Positions 19,501 through 62,200 of a stretch of DNA of 64,000 bases are shown here, one piece after another (positions within the stretch are counted from its first letter, which is position 1; each line of letters begins with the position of its first letter). The stretch is from Protonemura montana. Its lineage: Eukaryota; Arthropoda; Insecta; Plecoptera; Nemouridae. The notes below the pieces were generated by a model that saw nothing but the letters and a program-made list of their open reading frames with translations, ran no database searches and was not told where the DNA came from. The DNA lies in contig OX387607.1 of NCBI GenBank assembly GCA_947568835.1, forward strand, positions 7,511,201-7,575,200. Reading direction: 5' to 3'. Made by a program: the position numbers and the translations under genes.

Positions 19501-22500
19501 ATTCCTTTATAACTAATCTCATTAAAAGATAATGTGTAACACCTATCAACAAACAATAAAAGAACATTTTTCCTTTTAGCTGTGATGGTCCCACCAACCC
19601 GACCCAACATAACACGACTGTCGGACAATTCGGTGATGGTCCGGTGGTCTGTGCCGAGCAACACCGGCTTGCCCATCCAGTTCTTCAAAGTGCAGCACCG
19701 CGAGATGGGCCAATCTTCCACGGGCGCCGCGCGCCGCGGGGGCAGTGGAAAGCGCTGGATGACCAACAATGACGACATTCCGCCGCACGTGCGGAGCTAT
19801 GAGGTGGACGGCCTAGAGACAGAGCACACATACAGGTGAGTAACTTTGTGTCTGGGACTTGTGGACTGGCATGTCAGAGGACTCTTTTGGACTGGGTTTA
19901 CGGTAAGCTCTTTTGGGGGATATGTCAACAGTCCAGGTGTTCAGCACCTAATGTGCTGTAAAATTTTATAAAGATACTTTTACTTCATTACCCACAAACA
20001 CACATTTATATTCTAAGGAATATTTGGTATTGCCCTTGCTTTGTGGAAAACTTTGCATTAATAAGGTCCATCACACGCTCCAAAATATTGTTTATGGCCA
20101 ACCAAAATTATTGTGTAATATTATATTTGGTGACGCGCCCTGCATTTTAGTTGGCCAGAAATGCTGAGACAGCTGTTGTTTATAACAACTGCAAGAAATA
20201 TGTGAAATGCTTTTTATTATTTGCAGTAAGCTAGTTGCTGAATAGAAACTAAGTGAAATCTTAAGTTGTCAACTGAACCAATATGAGCACTAACGTCTTG
20301 TCACAGATTCCGCATAGCGGCAGTGTACTCCAACAACGACAACAAGCTTGGACCCAACTCTGGGCGATTCCACCTCCACCGCGCCACTGCCAGTGGCCGG
20401 TCGGCGCTAACTCCTCCAGCGCTGACGCATACAGAGGCTGTCAGTGCTAGCGCCATTCAGATTCACTGGCACCATGATCGGCAAGCCAGTGCACCCATCG
20501 AAGGTCAGTGGAAGGCTGGGTGAAGCCCATCTCCTATGAAAAGTTTTCAAAATACCAGTTGTTAGGAGGAGTTGGGTCCATTTTTACTAACTCTTCAACA
20601 ACAAGTTGGGTTTCTAGCTTATGGAATCACCTGAATTTCACTACATGTGATTAGAAGTCGTCATGGCAATTGCTTCAACGATCACTTCTACCGTTGAGTG
20701 TAGGTTATTGGTAGAGTTTCAACGTCAATGTTACAGTCTCTGCGTGAAAAATGACTACCTTACCGACAAAAATGCAGAGTACCGGAAGTTCACGTTAAGT
20801 GGAGCCACTGTCGTATGAAATTTAATTTCGATATTTATCGTATTTACTCGCTTCTTAATATTGTTACGTGTATATCAATCGTTGAGGTAAACATTGATGA
20901 AGATTTTTTGAGCATGAAAAGTTTCAAAAGCGAGTTAACCTACGAGAAATATCGAAATTAAAATTCATACGACAGTGGCTCCACTTAACGTGAACTTCCG
21001 GTACTCTGCATTTTTGTCGGTAAGGTAGTCATTTTTCACGCAGAGACTTTAACATTGACGTTGAAACTCTACCTATATCCTACACTCAACGCTTCTACTT
21101 AGAGTTGAGATTTTGGTAAAACCAGATCTTAGTGCATTATAAAATACATGCTTTGCTCGGATTTTAATTTTATTCGGAAAACACGTGATTTTCCTAAGGT
21201 TACCTATTTCGGGGAAAAGACCGCTATAATGAGGGTCGATTGTTTTTGGTTGCATTATAAAGCACCATGGTAGCACCACCAAATGGCCAGTAAGCTGAGC
21301 AAAAGGAAGAGAATATTTTGTGTTTACCATGATTTAAACAATCGAACAGTAACGGACTTGCTCTGTTGAGATTGATTTGTGGTCCGAAAAAGGACCTAAA
21401 AAGTCGATGTTTCTGAAGATGTCCTGATGACAGTCTTGAAAATGTCGGCGCCAACGCTGACGAAACGTCAACTTTTTAGGTCCTTTTTAGGACCACAAGT
21501 CAATCTCAACAGAGCAAGTACGTTACTCACCACAACATTCACCCACGACTCTGAACCACTTCACCAAACCAATTGAACAGTGATTGATGAAATATCAGTT
21601 AACCAACTGAAATGAAAATGAAAATATAATATAGTCTTTCATAACTATGTCAATTGCAAGATCTTCTGCTCAGTTACATCACGCAATTGAGAAATACCCT
21701 TGTTACAAGATATTTGTATCAATGGTGCCAGATTTGAAGGCCTGGTGGAGATAATCTAGCGTCCAGCCAACAGGCTTTGTACCGACACCTTTTCGCGCAG
21801 GCTTCTACGTTTATTACCGAGCTACAAGCAGTGCCGGTGATTACGTCAAGGCTACAGTGGATGGCGAGGCAGCACGCGCCTTCAACGTTACTCATCTTCA
21901 GCCCGACACGGCGTACGACTTCAAGCTGCAAAGCTTCACTGTCAACGGGGCTTCCGACTTCAGTGCCATTCTCACGCACAAGACTCAAGGTGAGTGTCGG
22001 TGGCACTGGAAGGCGATTGTGTGAAAAAGTTTTTGCATGATTACTTTTCACTTTTTTCCTGTCACTTTTGGTATCTTTTGATTTCGGTCGGGATTTGCCT
22101 TAGAAAATGTGTGACAACTCGTTTGATATTGCGACACAATCCCTAGGAATTTGAATTTTTTTTTTTTACTTTTCGATTGCCATAAAGACAACTCTCTTTC
22201 TGCAAATTGAGCCATTGAATTGTGTATCTATTTGAATAATTTCTTTAATTTGTGTTAAAACTTAGGGTGTGCATATTTAAAGTGGTTGAATCAGGTGATG
22301 AATAATTTTAAAGTTAGTGTTCCAAAATTATCTCCGTTGATATTTGGCATAACAACACAGCTGTGTAATCAGACTTATATAATAGTTACTAGTAAATTAT
22401 AGTATAAAGTATAGTGTAAAGTATAGTATAGTGTTTACCAATAGAAAATAGCAGATAGAAAATATAGCAGATAGAAAATAGCAAATAGTTAATACGTGAC

Positions 22501-45900: not shown

Positions 45901-48900
45901 CCTCCAGCCAACTTGCTTTCGTCGAACCCTTCGTATCGCCGAAAGCACAGGTAGCTCTAGATAAGGCATGGCACCATGTACTATTACATTCGATGTATCT
46001 TACACTTGAATGAGATTCAACAAATGTCCAATTGCAGTGTTTTTTTGGTTTTTCTAGCATTTCCGTTAAGGAGCTTAAACCAGCAAGCGGATGATGGAAA
46101 GGAAGCTAGACTGGAAAAATGTGCAACCGAACCGGGATACGAACCCGGGACCTCCCAATGTGGGAATATATGTGTCCGGATAGCTCAGTTGGTAGAGCAC
46201 CCGACAGGCAATTGGGAGGTCCCGGGTTCTTATCCCGGTTCGGTTGCACATATTTCCAGCCTAGCTTCCTTTCCAAATGTCCAATAGTTGCCAAAGAGCA
46301 AGGAAATTGGCCTACTAAATTGGTGTGGAATAGTTTTGATTGTTTCAATATCTTCATGTCTCTAACTACGAATCCCAATAAAAGCACGGCCAAAACCTCT
46401 TTAAAAACAAAACATCAACTCACACGTCACGTTGACGACTTGCTTGAGATCCACCCTGCCCCCAGGAAGAGCCGCGTGCTCGACGCGACACACAAGGTCC
46501 TGGTTGTTGTCCTGCCAGTCCACTCGAAGCACCAGCATCGCCTCGCAGTCCCCAGCTTCGTATGGCCACCGCCAGTCAGCGCCAGCAGCGTCCACGCATG
46601 TTTCCTCGCCGACGACTTTACCGGCCAGCAGCCACGTGATGCGTGGCATGGGGCGCACCTGACGGATGATGCACGAGGCTGCGAGCGTACCGTTGGCCGG
46701 CACAGATGCGTAGGCGATGGTCAAAATAGGAGCGTTGGGCGCATCTAGAACCAATCAGCGAAGATTGTTTTATGAGTTCGATGTCTCTCTTTCGTTCGTT
46801 ACGTGTGATCATTGATCATTGTCAAACGTATCAGATTTAGGAAAACCAAAAAGTTTTAAAAAGTGTCATCTACACTTTACATCTTACTTTACATCTTACA
46901 TTACTTCATCTACACGTTTGACGCATTTTACAAGCGTTATCAAGGGATACGAGAATTTTGACTTGCACGCCATTTTATAAATCTGCAGGTGAATATGGTA
47001 TTTGATTTACTAATTTTTTTGCATTTAACCACGCCCTGTTTTGATAACGGGGCCTGTGGCATTGGTCATATGCGCCCACGAATGGGTAGGCGGATATGAG
47101 GATGAAGATAACCTTGTCTAGTAGGGTAACATGGTAACCCGTTGCCGGCAAGTAGGTAGTAAAGTCCGGTCAAAGAGTACAACATAGCGTCACTTACGAA
47201 GCACAGTTTCACTTGAAGCACATGATTTATCCATAAATCCATGCTGTCAAGAGGTCGAGAAGCAAGGCGAATGAAGGAACTGATGACTTACTTTTATCGC
47301 TCCAAACCCTCATCCAAACAGAAAAGGTACGATTATAATGGTCATCTCTCCAAGCCTTTTACCTTGTGCCGTGTTATTTAACTCCGGTGATCGAAAAATA
47401 AATTGTCTCCAACTCACCAAGTCGTTCGAATTGCGTTCGTAATCAGAGATTGGTGGGTGCCAGAGCAAGTGACGGCTCGTCGCCAAAGTCTGTGCTCTTT
47501 GGTGGTAGGTTGATACGGAAAATTACAATGACCTTGCAAAAACAGACGAAGGAAATAAGAATTTCAAACACCTACCAGCAATAACAAGCGGCGAGGTTGC
47601 AGCCTCGTATCCCTTGGGCCGTGACTTGGTCCACGCGCTACATATGACGTTTCCCGACAACGTCGGTTTCGCGTTCAAGAATGTGATGCCACACTGGCCA
47701 CGGTCCAGCCCGGCGCCACTGTAGCGATACTCAGCGGCGTTCGAGGACTCGTTCACAATCGTCCAGGAGGTGTTGTTCCACTTGAAGAGGCAGCTGCTGA
47801 CTGCTTGGTCCGCTTGGCACAAAACCGTCACGTTGCCGCCAGGTAGCACTACGGGACGCGGTGGTGTGATCGAGAACCTGAAGGTGGCGTTGGCTGCAAA
47901 GGAAAATGGCGATAAACTAGTATTCTAGATGCATTATTCTTCACTTTCTTCTTGTCGGCGAACTCCCAGTCTCCCACTGATTATGATATATACCAATCAA
48001 AAACCTCTCAACTTACCAGTTACCAGTTCTCAGTTACCACGAAATACTTAATAAGAAATATAGCTTACAGATCGAAATGCGCCGGAGTCTCCGTTAGCGA
48101 CACGAAGAAAAGGAAGTATCATGACAGTAGAAACAAAGTACATAACACACTATGAGGATATTCAATCAAATGTCCTTGAGTAGTAATGACTTAAATTCTA
48201 AGACTTTCGACGGGATCTGAGTAGTAGGTATTGTCCATTAACGCAATTGTGACCTGTTCCTTGGTTCTCACTTGAAACTACGAGTTTGCAAACCAATAGT
48301 GAGAAGTTGCGGGGTATTTTCTAGAAATATAAACCTAGTGAATACTAGAAGGTAAAAACCAGATGTCAAATAATAATTATTCATGCCAAATATTAACTCA
48401 TAGTTAATAAATAATTCAATTGAGGTAAGATTAAGCTTTGATCGGTCTATTTACAGTTTAAGCTTATCGAAACTCACAGTTGATGACCAGCGACATCTGC
48501 GCGTACTTCCAGCCTCCGTCTGCGGCGCGTGCGCGGCAAGTGATGATGTCATACGTGTGCTCGCGCACGTACTCTGTCAGGGTGATCCCACACTGTCCCG
48601 TCGATAGTCCATTCCCGTAATACCCGAAGTCCCTAATAACGGAAACCAGCCAAGTGTTTAGGTCATGTTAGCAATGGGAGTTTGCTCGATGTGGTAAGAT
48701 CATCTTGGCTAATGAGTGGGTGATGATAAGGCTGATGCACCGTTCAGAGTCTAGAAAGGAGGAGGAGAACCCCGATGCGTTTACTCTTGTCGAGGGGACC
48801 ACTGGCTTAAAGTCACAGTCGAAAGATTGTACAACGCAAACAACAGGAAACCTCCACAAGTCCATAGTGTTGAGAAGTTAGAAGCAATGTTAATTAAGCT

Positions 48901-51900
48901 GTAGGTACTAACTTTTTTATTTTTATAATATCTTTGTCAAACAGATCTGGAAATGTATGTGATGTTACTTCTTCAATACATGACCAGACCATTGTTGCTT
49001 ATCCTCGGTGATCTCACGAGTGATTTCAACACGCTAAGTCGTTTGGCATGATATTAATTTATTTCTTAGACCCCGTAGCCTATGGGCGTGCGTGGCGTGC
49101 GCTTACTATGCCTTAGCTCAAACACTTCACTAGTCATGCCTCTTCACAATCACACTACGAAGGTGTGTTCTTGTAAAGAGGCCACCACGGCCTACTCTAG
49201 CGAGGCGAACACCTTATTCTTCAAGTACCTAGAATAGGGTGATTGCTGGCCAAGACTGAGGTCATAGAGGCTGTTCGAAAAGACGCGCTTGAACTGACAT
49301 CCAACCAATGGGACATCAGCCTGACACATGACCTTCACACGCTGCCTGGGCAGCACGTGCATGTTGATTGGCGAGATGGTCAGCTCAAAGGCGCAGACAT
49401 CTGAAACGAATATATTTTAGTGTTGGCAAAATGGCGCCTAATTATGTGGAATGATTGTGATGACTGATGACTGAAATCGTTGTGAAACACTGCATAACCT
49501 AGAAGGGAGACGGGAATTCTGTTGCCACGAAGCTAGCCTGCTCTTGCCGCAGCCACTTAGGTTTTTGACCCTTTCGAAAGGATTTTAGAAACTGGAAAAT
49601 CCATATAACTTCAATCTATCCTGAGTTCATGGCGGTAATTTAAACAAAGATCCTATACAGAACACACCACAAATAAATTCCATGAATGTGTCTACATAAA
49701 CAGTGATCTACTAGTTAATACTAACGAATGTGCTGCTTTTCAGTATGCAGGCAAATCTAAACCAGCCAGTGATTTATTTACGCCACCCCGTTATGATTTC
49801 CTCAATCAAAGAGATTCAGGATTATTGAAACAGCGTATCCGTAGTATTTAATTTCAGCAGTGTTGCTGTCAGTGTAAGTATTTGAATGTCCGGGAAATGT
49901 TTTCCGTTTGGAAATGGTTGCTTTATACCAAGTCAAGTTTGCCAAGGAATCATTTTGTGCTCGTCATCTCCTTAACTATTCACACAGATCAATTTATTAA
50001 ACAAAGATCTGAGTTTGTTTTTCCTGACAGTTCAAACAGCAAGACGCGATCTCCTCGATTTGTAGAAGAAGATTACTTTCAGTTACACAATGGCACAAAC
50101 TCTCTATTGTATTCAGGCTATTTTCTTGGTCAGCATGCATTTTCCTGAACGCTCGAAACGTTTTTCTCTTAATGAACCTTACCAACCTTCAGACATTGAC
50201 AGTAGTGGGATAAGATAAGATGTGATTAGAAGGTACACTTAGATGGAAAAAAAAAACCGCTATCGACCTTTCCCCTTCCAGACTTTTGTCGTCGTACCGC
50301 TTAGCGTTCTCTAACGCCTCATGGGGTCTTATAGAGATCTCAAAATCGTGTTAAAAAGAAGAACAAAATACAAATATACACACAATATTTTACATTTTTA
50401 GAGCTCTTTTTTCAATAGTCCGTTAATTTTTTAGTATGCTTGGCAACAGAAACATCAGAATATGTGTTTTGTTTATTTATGGTATGGTAATGTAACAATG
50501 CGCACCTGAGCCGCATATGTTAATTCAGGTTCTTTTATATTAATTGTTGTTATTACCAGTCTTACTTTACCATAGATGACTCGCATCAGTACTCGGGACT
50601 TAGATCTGTCAATACTAGGTCACGAGCTGATGGTGCCAAACTCTAAGCTTGGTCAGAGTGCATCGATGGCAAAGGTTCCCTTTTGCACACGTGACGAGTT
50701 AAAATCCATCACCAGCAAGGAACGAGACTGACAACTAATTCTCATTCTCACTCAGACTTTCAGTCCTGACAGTTCTTCTTCCGATCTCAGGATCATACAA
50801 TTTACGCTCGACTATAGGAAGTAAGTAAGATCTAATTTATAGAAATCTGGTCTATTCTACCTCTCTAACAGTCCCGATTGGAGTCATCCAGTTAAGATTG
50901 TCTCTTTGAGAAACACTCGATTCAGGAGTCATCCTCTATCGTGTTTCTATCCTTTCTAAACGCTGGATTCAGGAGTCATCCTCTATCGTGTTTATCCCTT
51001 TCTAAACGCTTGATTCAGGAGTCATCCTCTATCGTGTTTATTCCTTTCTAAACGCTCGATTCAGGAGTCATCCTCTATCGCGTTTCTAAGACCATCGATC
51101 TCTATTCTTTTGACTTACTCTCTCGATTGTACTTCCATTACATTCTGTGATTCTTATAATAAGTTTGTACATCTGAATTGATAACAATAAACCGTGTTAA
51201 CTTCACATACTGTGTCTTTACTGATTCTCCTCGACAAGGGTAAGCTATTCTTTTATTGGCAAAGTAATACTTTTACTGGCGCAAGACCAGCCCAGCTAAT
51301 CTATTCTCTCCGAACGCCTTGAACGTTCGCACGTTTACCTAGATAATTTAACGTCTTCGAGACTCCACGAGTCTCTGGTGGCAGCGTACCGAAATTAACT
51401 CTTAATCCAGTCTCTCAGGTATTCTATTCCGTCAAATACCCAATAATGGCAGCCCTAAAAAGCTCCATTACAAACTGGTAGTCAGCGGTGGGATAACGAA
51501 AGTTTTGCTTGTGCCTGTAAACATTTTTTTCAGAGTCCGAGGAGGCGAAAATCAGAAACACTGTATTACTAATGATATGTTTTTTTTTCTTCTCTGATCT
51601 TAATCTGTAACTTATCATGTCTAACACGCAGAATAATATTACGCTCGATAATGACGTTGTGTTTGACGAAGTGCCGCAGTCGGCAACCCCCACCCCCACT
51701 TACATTGACATAGGCAGTATTGCAGGGTTAATCACGATGGTTAAATATTTCACAGGGGTGGAAGGGACAACTAGTGTAGGCGAATTCTTTAAATCTTTGG
51801 AAACAGCTAGTCTACTAGGCAACTGGGATGATCGACAGAAAACAGCAGTCTTAGAATCGAGGATAACTGGCCCCGCAGAGCAATTCTATAACGCAGAGGA

Positions 51901-54597
51901 AAATTTTAAAAGCAAAAGTTGGCCAGAAATAAAGACAAAATTCCTTGAATGGTTTCGAGGGGCAGCTTCGACGCTTGACCCATTTCAGGCGTTTTACCAA
52001 TGCCAACAGAGAGTAGGTGAGACTGCAAAGCAATTTTTCAACAGAATAAAGCTAGCAGGACTGGCAGCAATGCCGAGCTCTCTGGAGGAGGAGGAGAGAC
52101 GATCGCGACAAAACCAGGTTGAAAGAGGAATTCTGAATGTCTTCATTAATGGGCTCAGGGATGAATCCGGGAAACAATTTATTTCAATGTTTGCACACAA
52201 TAATGTAGCGGACGCGTTGAAATTTGCAGACAGCTACGAATTTAATAATAAACACAAGAAAACTAAGGTTTTCGCGATTTCTGAAACACCTAAACCCGAT
52301 CCAGTAACTTCAAAAAAAAAAAAATAAAAAAAAAAAAAAATAAAAATAAAAAAAATAAATAAATAAATAAAGAAAAAGTTGATATAATTATTATTATTAT
52401 TATTGTTATACTACTATTGGGTTAAATATTATAATTTTGGCAATAGGGTTTCATAAATTAACGATTTTATTTTCTCACTTTGAAATTATTTTTATGTTTA
52501 GATATTTACTGGTATGTAGGTTACATTTTATAATAGATTAGATTTAATTATTATCGAAATTGTTCCAATCATTCTAAATGGTTCATTCTTCGTCACTGGT
52601 AATGGATAGCAACTACGAATTAAGTTAAAATTTTATTAATTAAGTATTTCAACTTTGATATCTTTCTCTGTTTTTTAAATTACCTCTCATTATTTGTTAT
52701 ATTTCATTATCTTTTTAATTTCATGTAAAATTTACCTCATAACATACCTTAAACCTTCTCTCAGGGATAATAGTAAACAATTTTCAATGTTCCCACCCTT
52801 ATTCATTCTTTGCAAACAATTAATGCACACATGTTTCTTTCCTGCTCAGTTCGAGTCGCAAGGACATCGGAGTATTCGAGAGGGATGACATATAGACGCC
52901 TTCCATAACCGGCACAGCATCTGGAATCGGCGCCCTGCAACTCGAGCCAACGTATACCTGGACTCGACAATAACGCATGAAAAACGCGAGCAGGAGGCGA
53001 ATCAACCGAACCAGCGCTGCTAATATATTACATCGTTAAAAAGTGCCGTGTGACGATTGCGTATCAAAGTCAGTCCCCCGAATCCCGTTGCCTTTTGTCG
53101 ATTTTCCGAACGAGTACGATCGTTACAATTTTCTTTTCGATGAGCTTCTTCCCAACATAAGGACGACATGTTCGCCGTTTCAAACATTGAACTTGGTTTA
53201 CGATTTTTTTTTTTTTATATATACGTTTACGCCAGTAGATATCCAGAGAAACAAAGACAATCCTCGATGGAGTGTTACTATCAAACACTTATTATCTACT
53301 ATCATTATGTACCACCTTACACTTATTATCTACTGTTACTATTTACTATCTATCCTTATTTTACTATTTCCAATTGTTATCTTCGTATGTCTTTCAATTA
53401 CACACCACTCATTTCCACCGACACTCATATTCAACACCTCCATTTGGGAGATGTTTCATTCGCTGGAAGTGGGGGGTGGTGTAACAATGCGCACCTGAGC
53501 CGCATATGTTAATTCAGGTTCTTTTATATTAATTGTTGTTATTACCAGTCTTACTTTACCATAGATGACTCGCATCAGTACTCGGGACTTAGATCTGTCA
53601 ATACTAGGTCACGAGCTGATGGTGCCAAACTCTAAGCTTGGTCAGAGTGCATCGATGGCAAAGGTTCCCTTTTGCACACGTGACGAGTTAAAATCCATCA
53701 CCAGCAAGGAACGAGACTGACAACTAATTCTCATTCTCACTCAGACTTTCAGTCCTGACAGTTCTTCTTCCGATCTCAGGATCATACAATTTACGCTCGA
53801 CTATAGGAAGTAAGTAAGATCTAATTTATAGAAATCTGGTCTATTCTACCTCTCTAACAGTCCCGATTGGAGTCATCCAGTTAAGATTGTCTCTTTGAGA
53901 AACACTCGATTCAGGAGTCATCCTCTATCGTGTTTCTATCCTTTCTAAACGCTGGATTCAGGAGTCATCCTCTATCGTGTTTATCCCTTTCTAAACGCTT
54001 GATTCAGGAGTCATCCTCTATCGTGTTTATTCCTTTCTAAACGCTCGATTCAGGAGTCATCCTCTATCGCGTTTCTAAGACCATCGATCTCTATTCTTTT
54101 GACTTACTCTCTCGATTGTACTTCCATTACATTCTGTGATTCTTATAATAAGTTTGTACATCTGAATTGATAACAATAAACCGTGTTAACTTCACATACT
54201 GTGTCTTTACTGATTCTCCTCGACAAGGGTAAGCTATTCTTTTATTGGCAAAGTAATACTTTTACTGGCGCAAGACCAGCCCAGCTAATCTATTCTCTCC
54301 GAACGCCTTGAACGTTCGCACGTTTACCTAGATAATTTAACGTCTTCGAGACTCCACGAGTCTCTGGTGGCAGCGTACCGAAATTAACTCTTAATCCAGT
54401 CTCTCAGGTATTCTATTCCGTCAAATACCCAATAATGGCAGCCCTAAAAAGCTCCATTACAGTAACTACATAACGGAGCACTGAAAAACCAGCACTAAAT
54501 CGGTTATTTGGTAGATTTTGTTGATAAACTAATAAAATATCTCACCAAGAGTGATCATCAGGATCAGACTCAAGACCGATGATATCTTCGTCTCCAT
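42905..54597 (-). CDS. Fas3: Fasciclin 3 homophilic adhesion protein with an extra N-terminal Ig domain, nine coding exons
   Basis: Immunoglobulin-superfamily homophilic adhesion molecule of neurons and epithelial junctions. Exons in transcript order: 54597-54546, 49400-49229, 48632-48478, 47893-47576, 46744-46424, 45262-45078, 44568-44331, 43546-43421 and 43029-42905, all GT-AG and phase-compatible, 563 residues. Layout: signal peptide (METKISSVLSLILMITL), Ig A (20-126), Ig B (127-232), Ig2 (233-339, RITWLLAGK, LVCRVEH), Ig3 (340-455, FAPVAPSASVALHGF, FVWTFANATL), membrane helix (488-507) followed by SRWRWCMGRKQF, and an acidic tail ending DDADSRRAP. Fas3 is recognised from YRYSGAGLDRGQCGITF (fly YFGAGLTAGQCGVSI), the Ig2/Ig3 junction and the RWxW/CxGxK stretch after the helix. 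Fly Fas3 has three Ig domains. Here the first kind occurs twice (LSTGQCGITL; LDRGQCGITF). The last acceptor (TACAGAG|TT) is the one that keeps the frame. Introns carry an LTR element, SINEs and tRNA-like fragments. Confidence 0.92.
43803..43838 (-). repeat. tRNA T-arm-like SINE fragment
   Basis: Minus strand CGGGGTTCGAGTCCCCGT is a perfect T arm and B box, followed by TTGGGC. No A-box side remains. It lies in a Fas3 intron. Confidence 0.45.
46033..46273. mobile_element. Head-to-head foldback of a tRNA-derived SINE with 12-bp target duplication
   Basis: In a Fas3 intron, flanked by exact CAAATGTCCAAT (46021-46032 and 46274-46285). The left half is the SINE body and T-arm on the minus strand. 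The right half restarts on the plus strand with a tRNA-like head (CCGGATAGCTCAGTTGGTAG, then CCCGGGTTCTTATCCCGG) and a short piece of body (CCAGCCTAGCTTCCTTTC). The halves pair over about 60 bp. A simple single-headed copy is at 54995-55146. The head resembles a tRNA, but acceptor pairing is imperfect and the base before the would-be anticodon is not T, so it is not a tRNA gene. Confidence 0.85.
47021..47430 (-). repeat. 5S-derived SINE (family R1), old copy
   Basis: In a Fas3 intron. The order of blocks is preserved (CCACGCCCTGTTTTGATAAC, a CTAGTAGGG block, CATGCTGTCAAGAGGTCGAG, CGGTGATC) with many substitutions. The 5S head is at the right end. Confidence 0.7.
48690..49047 (-). repeat. 5S-derived SINE (family R1), old truncated copy
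   Basis: Between Fas3 exons 2 and 3. Starts inside the element (AATGAGTGGGTGATGATAAG) and keeps CTTGTCGAGGGGACCACTGG and TCGGTGATCTCACGAG of the 5S head. Confidence 0.7.
49448..49600 (-). repeat. 5S-derived SINE (family R1), fragment
   Basis: Carries the CATAACCTAGAAGGGAGACG, AGCTAGCCTGCTCTTGCCG and CCCTTTCGAAAGGA blocks of the R1 body. No head or tail. Confidence 0.55.
50491..51472 (+). repeat. 5' LTR
   Basis: 982 bp, identical by eye to the 3' LTR. Contains the tandem block 50919-51088 (units start GATTCAGGAGTCATCCTCTA). Confidence 0.92.
50919..51088 (+). repeat. 46-47-bp tandem repeat inside the 5' LTR
   Basis: Units start at 50919, 50966, 51012 and 51058, with GATTCAGGAGTCATCCTCTA at each start and CTTTCTAAACGCT between. 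The same array is in the 3' LTR at 53908-54077. Confidence 0.9.
51617..52327 (+). CDS. Gag-like capsid frame of the LTR element
   Basis: A 236-residue frame with the look of a Ty3/gypsy capsid region: YFTGVEGTTSVGEFFKSLE, KSWPEIKTKFLEWF, FQAFYQCQQRVGETAKQFF, GILNVFINGLRDESGKQFIS. It ends in a lysine run where the DNA becomes A-rich. It is the only recognisable coding part of the element. Confidence 0.7.
   Translation: MSNTQNNITLDNDVVFDEVPQSATPTPTYIDIGSIAGLITMVKYFTGVEGTTSVGEFFKSLETASLLGNWDDRQKTAVLESRITGPAEQFYNAEENFKSKSWPEIKTKFLEWFRGAASTLDPFQAFYQCQQRVGETAKQFFNRIKLAGLAAMPSSLEEEERRSRQNQVERGILNVFINGLRDESGKQFISMFAHNNVADALKFADSYEFNNKHKKTKVFAISETPKPDPVTSKKKK
52310..52400 (+). repeat. A-rich low-complexity tract within the LTR element
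   Basis: AAAAATAAA and AAATAAAT units followed by (ATT)n just past the gag-like frame. Simple sequence. Confidence 0.8.
53480..54461 (+). repeat. 3' LTR
   Basis: 982 bp, matching the 5' LTR end to end, preceded by the purine-rich GGAAGTGGGGGGTGG. Confidence 0.92.
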
Positions 54598-54994
54598 TCT
54601 GGCACAGAATCACCAGTCTCGAGCTGGTAACACGCACTGGAACCAGCTTCGTTCCAAAAACAACACACCCCTGTTTAGCCTCCAGCGAACACAGAAATCT
54701 GTTCGTGGTCTCGTTAAAGATGGAATCGTATCCTGCTTCTGGCCTGCTTCCGTTGCGGGAGGTCAGAGGATGTTGGTGATAAGCCAGTGGTGATATCCTT
54801 TAAACAGCTAATTGCTATCTTGTTGTTCGACTTATCGCTTCACAGACTAAGGGATGCGCTTGTTGGTATTGTGTGCAACTCATAACCTTGCAAATCTAAC
54901 TTCTATACGATGTTAAGGTTGAGGAAAAATTCTCTACATTCAAATACACCTTGATATTTAGATCCTTCAAATACATGATACATCGTATACCTTG

Positions 54995-55146
54995 CAGTGT
55001 TTTTTGGTTTTTCTAGCATTTCCATTAGGGAGCTTAAACCAGCAAGCGGATGATGGAAAGGAAGCTAGACTGGAAAAATGTGCAACCGAACCGGGACCTC
55101 CCAATTGCCGGTCGGGTACTCTACCAGCTGAGCTATCCGGACACAC
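54995..55146 (-). mobile_element. tRNA-derived SINE, simple copy with 8-bp target duplication
   Basis: Flanked by ATACCTTG (54987-54994 and 55147-55154). Minus strand: GTCCGGATAGCTCAGCTGGT (A box), GGTCCCGGTTCGGTTGC (B box), then a body of about 80 bp ending CCAAAAAACACTG. It shares head and body with the foldback copy at 46033-46273. It lies just upstream of the Fas3 signal-peptide exon, in the likely promoter or 5' UTR region. Confidence 0.85.
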
Positions 55147-56780
55147 ATACCTTGATCATCAAGTATACATAAATATAACCAAAACCGTAACCATAACCAT
55201 AACCATATAATAACCAACTTAAATGTCATCATCGTGAGATAATATCAAAACCGTTAGAGGGTAATATATGAAAACAAAAGAATCTATCAGTATCTATCAA
55301 TACCGAGTCGACCCGATATTCCGAAAAGTAGAATCAACATTTACCCTCCACGGATGAATCAGTGTACGGATTTTCCGGATGAAATCATGCCTATCATGCA
55401 AGCGCCATGTGATTAGGAAGGAAGCCATACTGTCTACGAGACAAGATGGAATTTTTTAATTTGCGAGGACGGATGTTGCCAAGGACAAGTACTCATCAAT
55501 TCTTGCATCATTTTTTGTGATATCAAAGATCATAATAAACGGAATTCGAGAAATTCTGCGGAGTTTATAGAAATTGTAGATGCATCTTTTTTTTGGATCA
55601 ATGCAAAATTGTTGATTTTGCAAAAAAGATTATTTTCGTGTTCACCAATTATACTCAATCATTTCCGATTATTCTGGGAGCACATTAAAAAAAAAGTCGT
55701 AGCGTTCATAACAGTGAACTGGCAATTTAGATAAAATTTAACTGACTATTTCATATTCGTTTTCAAATATCGATAATTCACCCACGAGGTTTAATTTGTA
55801 TTTATATTTGTTATATTTTTAGAGTGATTTGAAATTATTTTTTAAATGTTTACAGAGAAAGCATTACAATTTGATAAGCGCTTATATCTGAGTATCGCAC
55901 GGTATTTTCAAGTTTAGAGCGGCAAGGTTAGATGGACGACATTTCCATTAATTTCATTGGCTAACTTTAAAACAAGACTGTACGGCAAGCCACAAGTACT
56001 GTATTTCATTGCGGAAGCTGAACTGTGTATTTTATTTGGGATGCCTATCTCTCGTCCAAGATTACAGAAGACAAATGGACACATCGCGACAAGCTCTGTG
56101 CAAATTTAAAACAATCTTATCTACCATTGAACACCTTTCTCTGTCTACAGACACTCGCAGACGACGTTGTCAAAGCTCTTAGAGTATAGCCATGAGCGGC
56201 CGCCCGCATGCGTCTATCAAGCTTCCTCGTTATATCAGGTCAGATCCATCGTTAAGCTGCTAACAGATAGAACCAAGAGGTTGACAATCTGAAATGTGTC
56301 TTCAATTGCAAAATGTGAAATTGGTTTTGTTATCAGCGTGTCAATTGTCTTTATTGTGTACAACTCTGCCATGCGCTGGATAAAAAAAGGAAATAAAAAC
56401 ATTTTTTGGAACTAAAAGAAAAGGCACGATTTTGTAAAGTATACCATAATTCAGTTTTGGTGGACCTTTTTCAAGGCAAATAAATAAATTTCGTTGTGGT
56501 TAGAACTTCATGAATGAGGGTGATATTACTACCTTTGGACGCAGATTTGATTAAACAAGAGTTTTTCCAGAAGGAAATAGGAATGAATTATACTTTATGC
56601 GACCCCACAATTCCTGCGTCAGACAAATTGGTTAAAGGCTATAAACCTAACCCGAAAATCTTAAAATCTTTTTAAAATACAAAAAACAAAAAATGAACCT
56701 GTAGTTTTCAAAAAACTGAGCTTAAGTTTTAGTAATAAATCTTGAAACTAATAGATTGAAAACTAATAAAAAAAGCCTTA
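55147..56780. other. Intergenic stretch between divergent Fas3 and its broken paralogue
   Basis: AT-rich, with a short (AACCATA)n-like tract near 55180-55215. No ORF of note and no signal-peptide exon for the right-hand paralogue that I could identify. Confidence 0.4.
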
Positions 56781-56793
56781 GCACTCGTGTCAG

Positions 56794-58215
56794 TAACGTC
56801 AGCAGCACTCCAGCTAAACGGCATCAACGGCAACGAATGTCGTTGTTTAGACCCGGACGAGAAGTTCGTCGACTGCCAGTTTAAGGGCTACCCCAATTGC
56901 GGCGTGGTCGACATGGCACACAATGATAACGGATGGCTAAAACTCGACTCCAGTTATGCTATTATTATTTGTGGTGTTTAACGACGCACTGTTTTGACAT
57001 CTGGCCATGCGGCACCAGTCTAACGGCGTCGGTGAATGGGTTGATGATGATGAGGATGATGATGAACTTAATCTAGACTAGAAGGGAGGAGGGGAAACCC
57101 GCTGCCGGCACGTAGCCTACTCCTGTCGAAGAGCACCCAGGGGACCACCGGCTAAACGTCCCTTCCGAAGGACGGTACAACGCGAACAACAGGATTCCTC
57201 CACAAATCCTTGCTGTCCAGAGGTTAATATGCAAGGCAAGTGAAGTTGCTGTACTAACTTTCATCCTACCAACCTCTCTCCCGAACAGAACTGGTCATGT
57301 GTATGATGGTCACCCATCTACCACCTGACTCAGCGCAGTGTTCTTTAACTTCGGTGATCTAACGTGAACCGGTGTTTCCAACATGCCAAACCGTTCGGTC
57401 TCGACTCCAGTCTTTCGACGGGTAGTTGCACAGTGACGTTGTCCAACAACTTCAAGACAGATGTCGACTACTTGATAGCGTGCAGGTTGCGAGTATCATC
57501 TGACGAACCGTGGATCGAAGAGGAAAGGTCATTCAGCCGACAGGTGGACACAAGTGAGTGAACGAACCGAAGAAGTCCATCAAGTGACATTTGATTCACA
57601 GATGCACTGAAAGTTTTCAGAAAATGGCTCCAAAATTTTAACAGTTCCTTTGAATATACCACTACCCATGACCAGAAGAGATTTTTTTTAATGTGGCATG
57701 TCCCTTGTTTTTTGGAATGAGGAGTTGAGACTTTCTGAATAATTTCTGGCTCAAAAACTAGTACGGCAGCAATGCTCAGTCACATAATTCTGTTGTTTGA
57801 GTGGTACGCCAAACATGCATGCCATAATCAACGCATGTCAACGCATGCCATTATCAATGCTTTTAGTTAAGAGGCATCTTATTTCGAGACGGGGTACCAT
57901 CTAAAATGTAGATTGGACTGCGATAGGCCACGGTTTCCTGTCCATCAGTCCCGCATAGTTTCGATGGCACGCAGGTACTACTCAAGTGTGATTCCAGATC
58001 TCAAGCTCGACTCACTGACTAAGACCACGTCGCTGACTTCATCGCTGACGGCCAGCGACACGATCAGCAGTCACACTATCGAAAGCGTCGGTGTGACTAA
58101 GTGTTCGTTTCTCATCCTGGACCAAGAGGAGCGTTTCGCCGGAACAGTCAGTGGCAACAAATGCACTGCGAGTACAGTCAGTGGTAGAATGCCGCAGTTC
58201 GTGATCACATCATGA
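56794..58215 (+). pseudogene. Broken Fas3-like paralogue (two Ig exons)
   Basis: Exon 1 opens after the acceptor TCGTGTCAG at 56793 in phase 1 and reads VTSAALQLNGINGNECRCLD, then FVDCQFKGYPNCGVVDM. A 445-bp SINE (56955-57399) with duplicated CTCGACTCCAGT splits it. Beyond the SINE the same frame resumes as LDSSLSTGSCTVTL, DVDYLIACRLRVSSDEPW and ends at A|GTGAGT (57553). The intact gene reads LSTGQCGITL and YDIITCRARAADGGW at the matching place. Exon 2 starts after CCATCAG at 57949 (IPHSFDGTQVLLKCDSRS), soon stops, and a second Ig-like half (VTKCSFLILDQEERF, GNKCTAS) lies in another frame. It points away from Fas3, so it arose by inverted duplication. With an exon broken by the SINE and a frame change, it is very probably not a working gene. 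Confidence 0.75.
56955..57399 (-). mobile_element. 5S rRNA-derived SINE (R1), full-length young copy inside a Fas3-like exon
   Basis: 445 bp with exact 12-bp flanks CTCGACTCCAGT (56943-56954 and 57400-57411). Closely matches the copy at 32356-32802 along its whole length. On the minus strand it begins ACCGAACGGTTTGGC and carries GATCACCGAAGTTAAAGAAC (5S-like). It ends AAACACCACAAATAATAATA. Confidence 0.93.
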
Positions 58216-59219: not shown

Positions 59220-62200
59220 CTACAGCTGCTCGTTCTCTGCGAGTGGTGCTTGTTCCCAAAATTTCATCCGGCTGTCGTAGAACTCGGTGGTCATGCGAAA
59301 CTCGATGGTAGCGGTGTCTTGGTTGTGCAGTTGAAACTGTTGTCATGACGACTTCCAATCACATGCAGTGAAATTCAGATGTTTCTGTGAGTAAGAGGTC
59401 CAACTTCTAGTGGACAATTTTGGTAAAACCCAACCTTAAAGGACTAAAATAACATTGGTTATTAAACGCAAATTAACAAAAATATCATATCATCGTATCC
59501 TGCATCACGAAGTTGATCTATTTTGAAATAGTAGCCCTGGTCATTATTTGAATCGTCGGTTTGTGTTCCCAGTTCTGTATTTCCAGGACTAATCCGTGCT
59601 TGGCGAAGTTGGTCCAGAGGGTGACGAGACTGTCGACCACTTTGAGATCTCTGTGGTGCTCGGGCCACGCGGGGAAACCGGCGACCGGCATCAGGTGGAT
59701 CTGTTCGTCGCCATGAGCGATACCTGCAAAAAATGGATTGATTAGTGGGGCTTAATGCCGCCCTGTTTTGAAAAAGGACCATTTAACACTGGTTTATGAG
59801 TGGATGGTGATGAAGATGATGATAAACCTAACCTAACCTTGAAGGGAGGAGGGGAAATCCGGTGACGGAACGTAGACTATTCCTGTTGAAGAGCATCAAG
59901 CGGACTACTGGCTTATTGCCCTTCCCGAAATACTGTATAACCACTCGCCTACATCAATTTTATTGTTAGAGCTGATAAAGGGTAACGGCCAAGGATATTG
60001 GAGGGTATCGTGAACTTATGCCAATTATATACATTATTTTTGTTTCCAAGGCGTACTTTCCATTACAAACTTGCTACTTTGTATCGTTATCACTCCCTAG
60101 TTGGTCAAGCAGGCTGGCAGTCAGTTTTAAAAATCAAATCGCTCAAGTCACTATTCGTTGAGGAACATTCTTTGCACGGTAGCTCTTAAATATCATAGCG
60201 AGAAGATGGTTGATATTAAAAAGTGTCGAATTAGTATTTCACATCGTTGTTTGTTGATTTTGAGTTTCTTTGCGTTTTCATGGCATGCCGTAGACAATGC
60301 CGATTTGCTTGCTGAAACCAAAGCAGTGTGCTTCGACGAAGACGTTTACAGGCACGTTCTCCTTGACAACCATACTGATCAGAGTACGAAACTCAATCTG
60401 GCAGCTGATATAATCTACAACTGCTCCCAGTCACCAATAGAAGACAATGATGTTAAGAAAGTAATGAAAATTTACTTCGACGTTTTGCATTTAGATCAAG
60501 ATATTTTATCAGAGTCATTTCGCATACTTAAAAAAATTCTTGATGCAATAGACAACATTTTTTCAAAATATAGCATAGTTCCTTCTTTGTTTTTTCAAAT
60601 GGCGTTTAGACTTCCATCGCGTACCGTGAAGGATTCTCACATCGGAGATGACCTTTTTACAAACGCTGTTCTTGACTCTCAGCCCAAAAAGTTATCACCC
60701 ACAGTCATGTCAACAGTGATGTTTGGTTATGAAAGGAAACCATATTTTATTACTTCGGGATTTTACACCACAGACACAAATGAGAAAATGGTTAGTTTCG
60801 CCAACTCTACTGAAATTGACACCTTGTTTAAGTTTTATCCAAATTTTGCCTGTGTCGCAGTAAACCCTGAAACAGTTTCCTACTACCGCGTTGTGGCAGT
60901 CGTCTACCCAGTAAACGTGACGTCGTATCCGAAGATGGGATCAGCGTCGAACATCCACCAGTTGGATCTCTACATCGACGTCGATTACGACGCAATAAAA
61001 ATCAAGTTGAACATGCAAGTACCAAACGGAGACACGTTGTTTGACATCATGTTCCGACCGGAAACTTCTGATACTGAGTCGGGGTGTGCATCTTGGAGTG
61101 ACGACCTCGACGCATGGACCGAAACGGGAGCTTGCTGGGTACAATACGTCCACAGCGTCACAACATGCCGCTGTAACACTGGCGGTAACAGAGTGACTAG
61201 AGTCATTATGTTCGACCTCCCGCGCCCAAGTAATTTCGCTTTATCTACACAATTTGTAGGCCCCGCTATTGTCATGCTTATATTTTCGTCGTTTTCGTTG
61301 CTTAGTTTGATTGGGATTTTTGCAATCGCCATTATTTTACCCAAATGGCGCGAGGAATTGGGCAACAAAATCGTTTTGAATTTAGCCGTGTCGTTGTTCG
61401 TTTATTTAATCATGAACACGATACGTGAAACGCAATTGATTTTTTCGTATGGAAATATGTTCAATGTCGGTTTAATCTGTTTTACTGCGTTCATGTATTA
61501 CATCCGACTCGTGCACTATGCGTGGTGGTCGGTGCTGGTATTTTATCAATTTCGTAGGATTTCAGATAATTTCGAAGATATTCCGACCGCACATATTTTG
61601 CTCGTGGTCAGTCTTCTGGCTTGGCTAGGTCCAATTGTTCCTTTAATAGTCTTGCTATCTTGGGACGCGAACACACACTTTACAGGCCCTAACAAGCAAA
61701 CGCATTACCTTATGTACTTGGTTCCTTGCGCTGTAATCACACTGGTCAACATTGGTGTGGTCAATTTGCTGAAATGCATAGTAAGACGAGTATTTGGCTG
61801 TGGCAAAGTTCTGCTGCCAGACGACAGTGTCTCTGACAAGCGTAGATTGAATCGAGCTTTGACTCAAGTTTCCACGCTGAATTCTCTTTTTGTTGCAGCC
61901 GCCTGCGCAGAGTTGTGTAACGATTTGTTTTTCCATAGCGTTTTTCTTGACTATGTCAACAAGTTTCTGGACCCGAGCAAAGGGTGCGTTTTGTTTTTGG
62001 TCTATATTCTGTCCGATTCAGCGACCAAAAGTCACTGGAGGTTCAAGTTTGATGAGGAGGATGAACCGTTGCCGGTGAAGGGAAATAACAAATTTAAAAA
62101 TTTTAGGACTACTCGAAGGGTAATCAAATCTTTATAGCACAGTAAAAAGTTGTAAAAATGACTTTAAATTATGGTTAGAACTTTGGTTTCTCTAAACAAC

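Follow-up and report, generated by a model that had tools for sequence, protein, structure and literature searches.

A 5S rRNA-derived SINE of apparent middle age within a probable former V-type Ig exon

Two identical 12-bp sequences flank a 445-bp repeat in the window (the whole 64,000-nt stretch of DNA that was analysed), and the question that this locus raises is whether a mobile element broke a coding Ig exon and, if so, whether it did so recently. The insertion itself is real and well delimited. The two copies of CTCGACTCCAGT are 100% identical with 445 bases between them, and the right copy adjoins position 57399, an edge that was set independently by an Rfam match to 5S rRNA (model positions 1-120 of 120). 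Thus, the perfect 12-bp duplication proposed by the initial annotation was confirmed. As a chance control, any repeated 12-mer within the 1001-bp stretch was found in 2.5% of 2000 mononucleotide shuffles. Excision of the element together with one duplicate had been claimed to restore one open frame, and it does: the rejoined exon (...NGWLKLDSSLSTGSCTVTL...) is 303 nt long, in phase 1-1 and without a stop. The features of the locus are collected in Table 1.

Table 1. Coordinates of the interrupted exon, the inserted element and its parts within the window.
Feature	Positions	Strand	Basis
Putative former exon encoding a V-type Ig domain (phase 1-1), split	56794-57553	+	Joined frame, V1 profile, GC3
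5S rRNA-derived SINE, full length	56955-57399	-	Rfam and genome copies
5S rRNA-like head of SINE	57399-57279	-	RF00001, 56.3 bits (gathering score 38)
AAT-rich 3′ tail of SINE	56955-56970	-	Tails of other genome copies
Left copy of 12-bp target-site duplication, CTCGACTCCAGT	56943-56954	.	
Right copy of 12-bp target-site duplication, CTCGACTCCAGT	57400-57411	.	

The Rfam model RF00001 (5S_rRNA) is matched over its entire length on the minus strand (E 4.3e-9); against it, a sister copy at 32802-32682 reaches a score of 61.3. Since the 5S match starts beside the right duplicate, the 5′ end of the SINE lies at 57399 and the element is antisense to the exon; the initial annotation had assigned it neither strand nor class. 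At its left end stands TATGCTATTATTATTT, an AAT-rich tail in reverse complement; such tails are present, at varying length, in other copies of the SINE. Within its 5S-like part the element departs from the family consensus. A tRNA origin was rejected, as ARAGORN found no tRNA in the element and Rfam gives 5S.

In the genome to which the window belongs (258,480,905 bases in 34 contigs), searching at the DNA level recovered at least 39 further near-full-length copies at 91-93% identity to this SINE; 40 of 4248 first-look candidates were scored and copy counts are lower bounds. Flanking repeats of at least 8 bp are present at 17 of 30 SINE loci, this one included, compared with 8 of 870 mispaired flank pairs. 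The SINE core was matched 61 times (27 of these over at least 150 bp) in 227,927 bases drawn from the window, the flanks of loci, the Ig loci and three further stretches, a non-random sample, much of which surrounds SINE copies and Ig paralogues. By its 5S head, AAT-rich tail, short length (445 bp), dispersed many-copy distribution and target duplications the element is of the SINE3 type, an assignment by these general features. According to PMC10886601, SINE3 elements are 5S-derived, arose several times and include lepidopteran families such as HaSE3. The present element shares with SINE3 the 5S rRNA-like head, the short non-coding body, an A-rich repetitive tail and target duplications. No description of this SINE family, or of an Ig expansion such as that described below, was found among the literature matches listed, one search being swamped by ecology.

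We then consider what was interrupted. That the split region was formerly a coding exon of Ig type, as the initial annotation held, is well supported by comparison with related sequences. A V1 profile was built from nine sequences, namely the neighbouring Ig gene of the window and eight paralogues, with the split exon excluded. This profile matched the rejoined exon at E 1e-4 (19.3 bits) over 68 residues; the right-hand ORF on its own gave E 0.0016 and the left-hand ORF E 8.8, whilst the best ORF of the window outside the split exon and the neighbouring Ig gene reached E 0.42. Conserved cysteines and the LSTG.C motif are seen in the alignment. A genome search with the exons of the neighbouring Ig gene (E up to 10) returned 94 matches, of which 29 among those listed cross the V1 domain uninterrupted (from query position 30 or earlier to 95 or later), each free of stops, so that V1 commonly occupies a single unbroken exon within the family. 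Moreover, GC3 of the two exon halves is 0.66 and 0.65, that of the five exon pieces of the neighbouring Ig gene is 0.67-0.77, and the GC content of the flanks around the split exon is 36 and 43%.

The splice borders had been described as good. This is true of the donor at 57554, which lies at the 99.7th percentile among GTs of the window's plus strand, but not of the acceptor ending at 56793, which reaches only the 85th percentile among AGs of the same strand; both values come from a self-made consensus score with assumed frequencies. The moderate acceptor would fit a region that had never been exonic and whose frame is open by chance, as would the lack of any Pfam Ig match (E up to 10) to the rejoined exon. 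However, the V1 profile match over 68 residues with the next unrelated ORF at 0.42, the conserved cysteines and LSTG.C motif, and a GC3 far above the GC of the flanks all argue against this, and we consider it extremely unlikely. Used as a protein query against the genome's 34 contigs (E up to 10), the rejoined exon matched nothing but its own halves. An empty copy at another place in these contigs was rejected, as the rejoined exon (protein) and the left flank (DNA) match this place only. The label "Fas3-like" for the Ig family is a putative one; 'fasciclin 3' was absent from the literature among the matches listed.

With the SINE in place the frame reads LDSS-YAIIICGV-stop, ending 8 codons beyond the junction. 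The gene could nevertheless be alive if the SINE were spliced out within a new intron or if the symmetric exon were skipped. The exon is in phase 1-1, so that the frame survives skipping; 49 GT-AG pairs yield in-frame, stop-free joins within the range searched, and the neighbouring Ig gene has, in the same domain, an intron with an older SINE of this family inside it. However, none of the GT-AG pairs restores the exon exactly, because after the only AG of the duplicate come a T and the T of the SINE rather than GT. The best in-frame pair among those listed scores -1.7, compared with 5.2 for the natural donor alone (assumed frequencies), and skipping would need neighbour exons, none of which was found. 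Splicing of the SINE, for which the pairs were enumerated, is not favoured, and we regard a living gene as very unlikely.

Companion exons are also central to whether the insertion broke anything. On the plus strand from the exon to the window end, V2 and C2 profiles gave nothing better than E 3.6 among the 25 matches listed per profile. Of 39 ORFs in the surroundings of the exon, 10 were compared with Pfam (seven short ones downstream, two upstream and one of 668 residues), and none had an Ig-like match. An Ig reading of the ORF at 57871-58212 was rejected, as it has no Pfam match. The missing companion exons fit an isolated relic just as well as a gene that the SINE interrupted. At the time of insertion the exon may thus already have been a relic detached from its gene, in which case nothing was broken or dated; we hold this to be unlikely, though deserving of some weight. 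Against it, the joined 303-nt frame is still open, both splice borders exist, and companion exons could be diverged or lie farther off. The open frame is weak evidence, because indel-free neutral simulation at 4.5-7% divergence kept it open in 43-56% of runs; when indels were allowed at 10-20% of substitutions, it stayed open in 2-16%. Since the SINE itself carries no indel relative to the consensus of 30 copies, an unselected exon is quite possible. The proposed dating of the gene's loss by the insertion is not established, given that no companion exon was found nearby and that the host frame is still open.

Nor did the description of the SINE as young survive comparison with its family. Compared with a majority consensus built from 30 other copies, it differs at 32 of 432 positions (two of them in leading columns outside the element), whilst the other copies differ by 1.6-4.2%. 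Its identity to the core consensus is 93.0% over 429 positions (7.0% divergence), the seventh lowest divergence among 27 pieces of at least 150 bp that range from 98.8 to 65.0% identity, the 34 core matches shorter than 150 bp having been left out before ranking; pieces 1-2% from the core consensus exist among the 27. The branch leading to this SINE alone is at least 4.4%, a lower bound, with the nearest copy at 6.6%, compared with 0-2.0% for the other 30 copies, a panel that was picked by likeness to this SINE, favours little-changed copies and is itself the source of the consensus. Even so, a burst more recent than this copy is visible in the family, with this copy outside it. The calculated chance that a 12-bp pair stays identical at 4.5-7% divergence is 0.33-0.18, so that a perfect pair does not point to youth, and dating the insertion as young from it was rejected. 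In general, a perfect target duplication alone does not mean a recent insertion. Judged by relative divergence, the scale of age used here, the insertion would be of middle age for its SINE family and not especially recent.

Our preferred reading, to which we give a probability of about 0.68, is that the SINE inserted antisense into a coding V-type Ig exon at a middle age of its family and disrupted the domain. The 5S rRNA-derived element would have been copied into the exon by target-primed reverse transcription, a mechanism that we infer from SINE biology in general, and its landing, antisense to the exon, was accompanied by the 12-bp target duplication. In the assembly as it stands the frame continues past the left duplicate, enters the tail of the SINE and soon stops, so that the exon no longer encodes the Ig domain, barring skipping, for which its unoccupied form is symmetric. 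The exon was presumably in use when the SINE arrived, and function was probably lost. This reading is supported by the duplicate, the 5S edge, the copies with flanking repeats, the V1 profile, the 29 of 94 uninterrupted family matches, GC3 and the premature stop; counted against it are the absence of a Pfam Ig match, the query that finds its own halves only, the moderate acceptor and the lack of V2 and C2 matches.

The insertion is ordinary in kind, though it shows cleanly how a SINE can interrupt a coding exon. It could be used as a marker to compare populations or related species. Introners, which are treated in PMC9860276, resemble it in being mobile elements within coding exons with a target duplication; here, by contrast, no splice pair restores the 56794-57553 exon exactly and there is no sign of splicing. 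On a further reading, which we find highly doubtful, SINEs of this kind insert again and again at one part of the V-type Ig exons of this expanded gene family and some of them turn into introns, as in the V1 domain of the neighbouring gene described below, with the present locus as an early, unspliced stage.

The neighbouring Ig gene lies on the minus strand at about 49.4-43.4 kb of the window. Its V1 domain is cut by an intron (in the region 48632-49230, minus) that contains an older SINE of the same family at 48711-49046. The intron ends are alike in register at 11 of 19 bases, a likeness reached by 0.4% of random pairs in a post hoc test. A second copy of the roughly 190 bp of this intron that precede the SINE was not found. 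A PDB search with the second V domain of the gene gave weak general Ig matches only (best E 0.00036). The Ig family is large, with its 94 exon-level matches (E up to 10) on contigs C1, C3, C4, C5, C11, C12, C14, C15 and C16, and many of them are grouped in clusters on C1, C3, C11, C12 and C15. In one paralogue (L046) only the second half of V1 is present.

Several other features of the window and genome were observed. Direct copies of 982 bp at 50491-51472 and 53480-54461 are 100% identical and about 2 kb apart; this pair, situated between the two Ig loci, has the look of an LTR element that inserted recently. A tRNA-Ala-like match (46174-46247) sits within an inverted repeat at 46095-46275, with a related copy at 54992-55149, and long self-palindromic stretches occur at 20692-21091 and 21348-21527 (85% and 79% self-complementary, respectively). 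The 668-residue ORF is uninterrupted (60131-62137, plus); its secretin-type 7-transmembrane match is weak and, with E 0.05, misses the cut-off. Lastly, COX1 matches on a large contig (C4:5760925-5762262) and a small one (C34:3504-4841) are equal in score, frame length and TGA count, and this pair represents either mitochondrial DNA recently copied into the nuclear genome or a join made in assembly.
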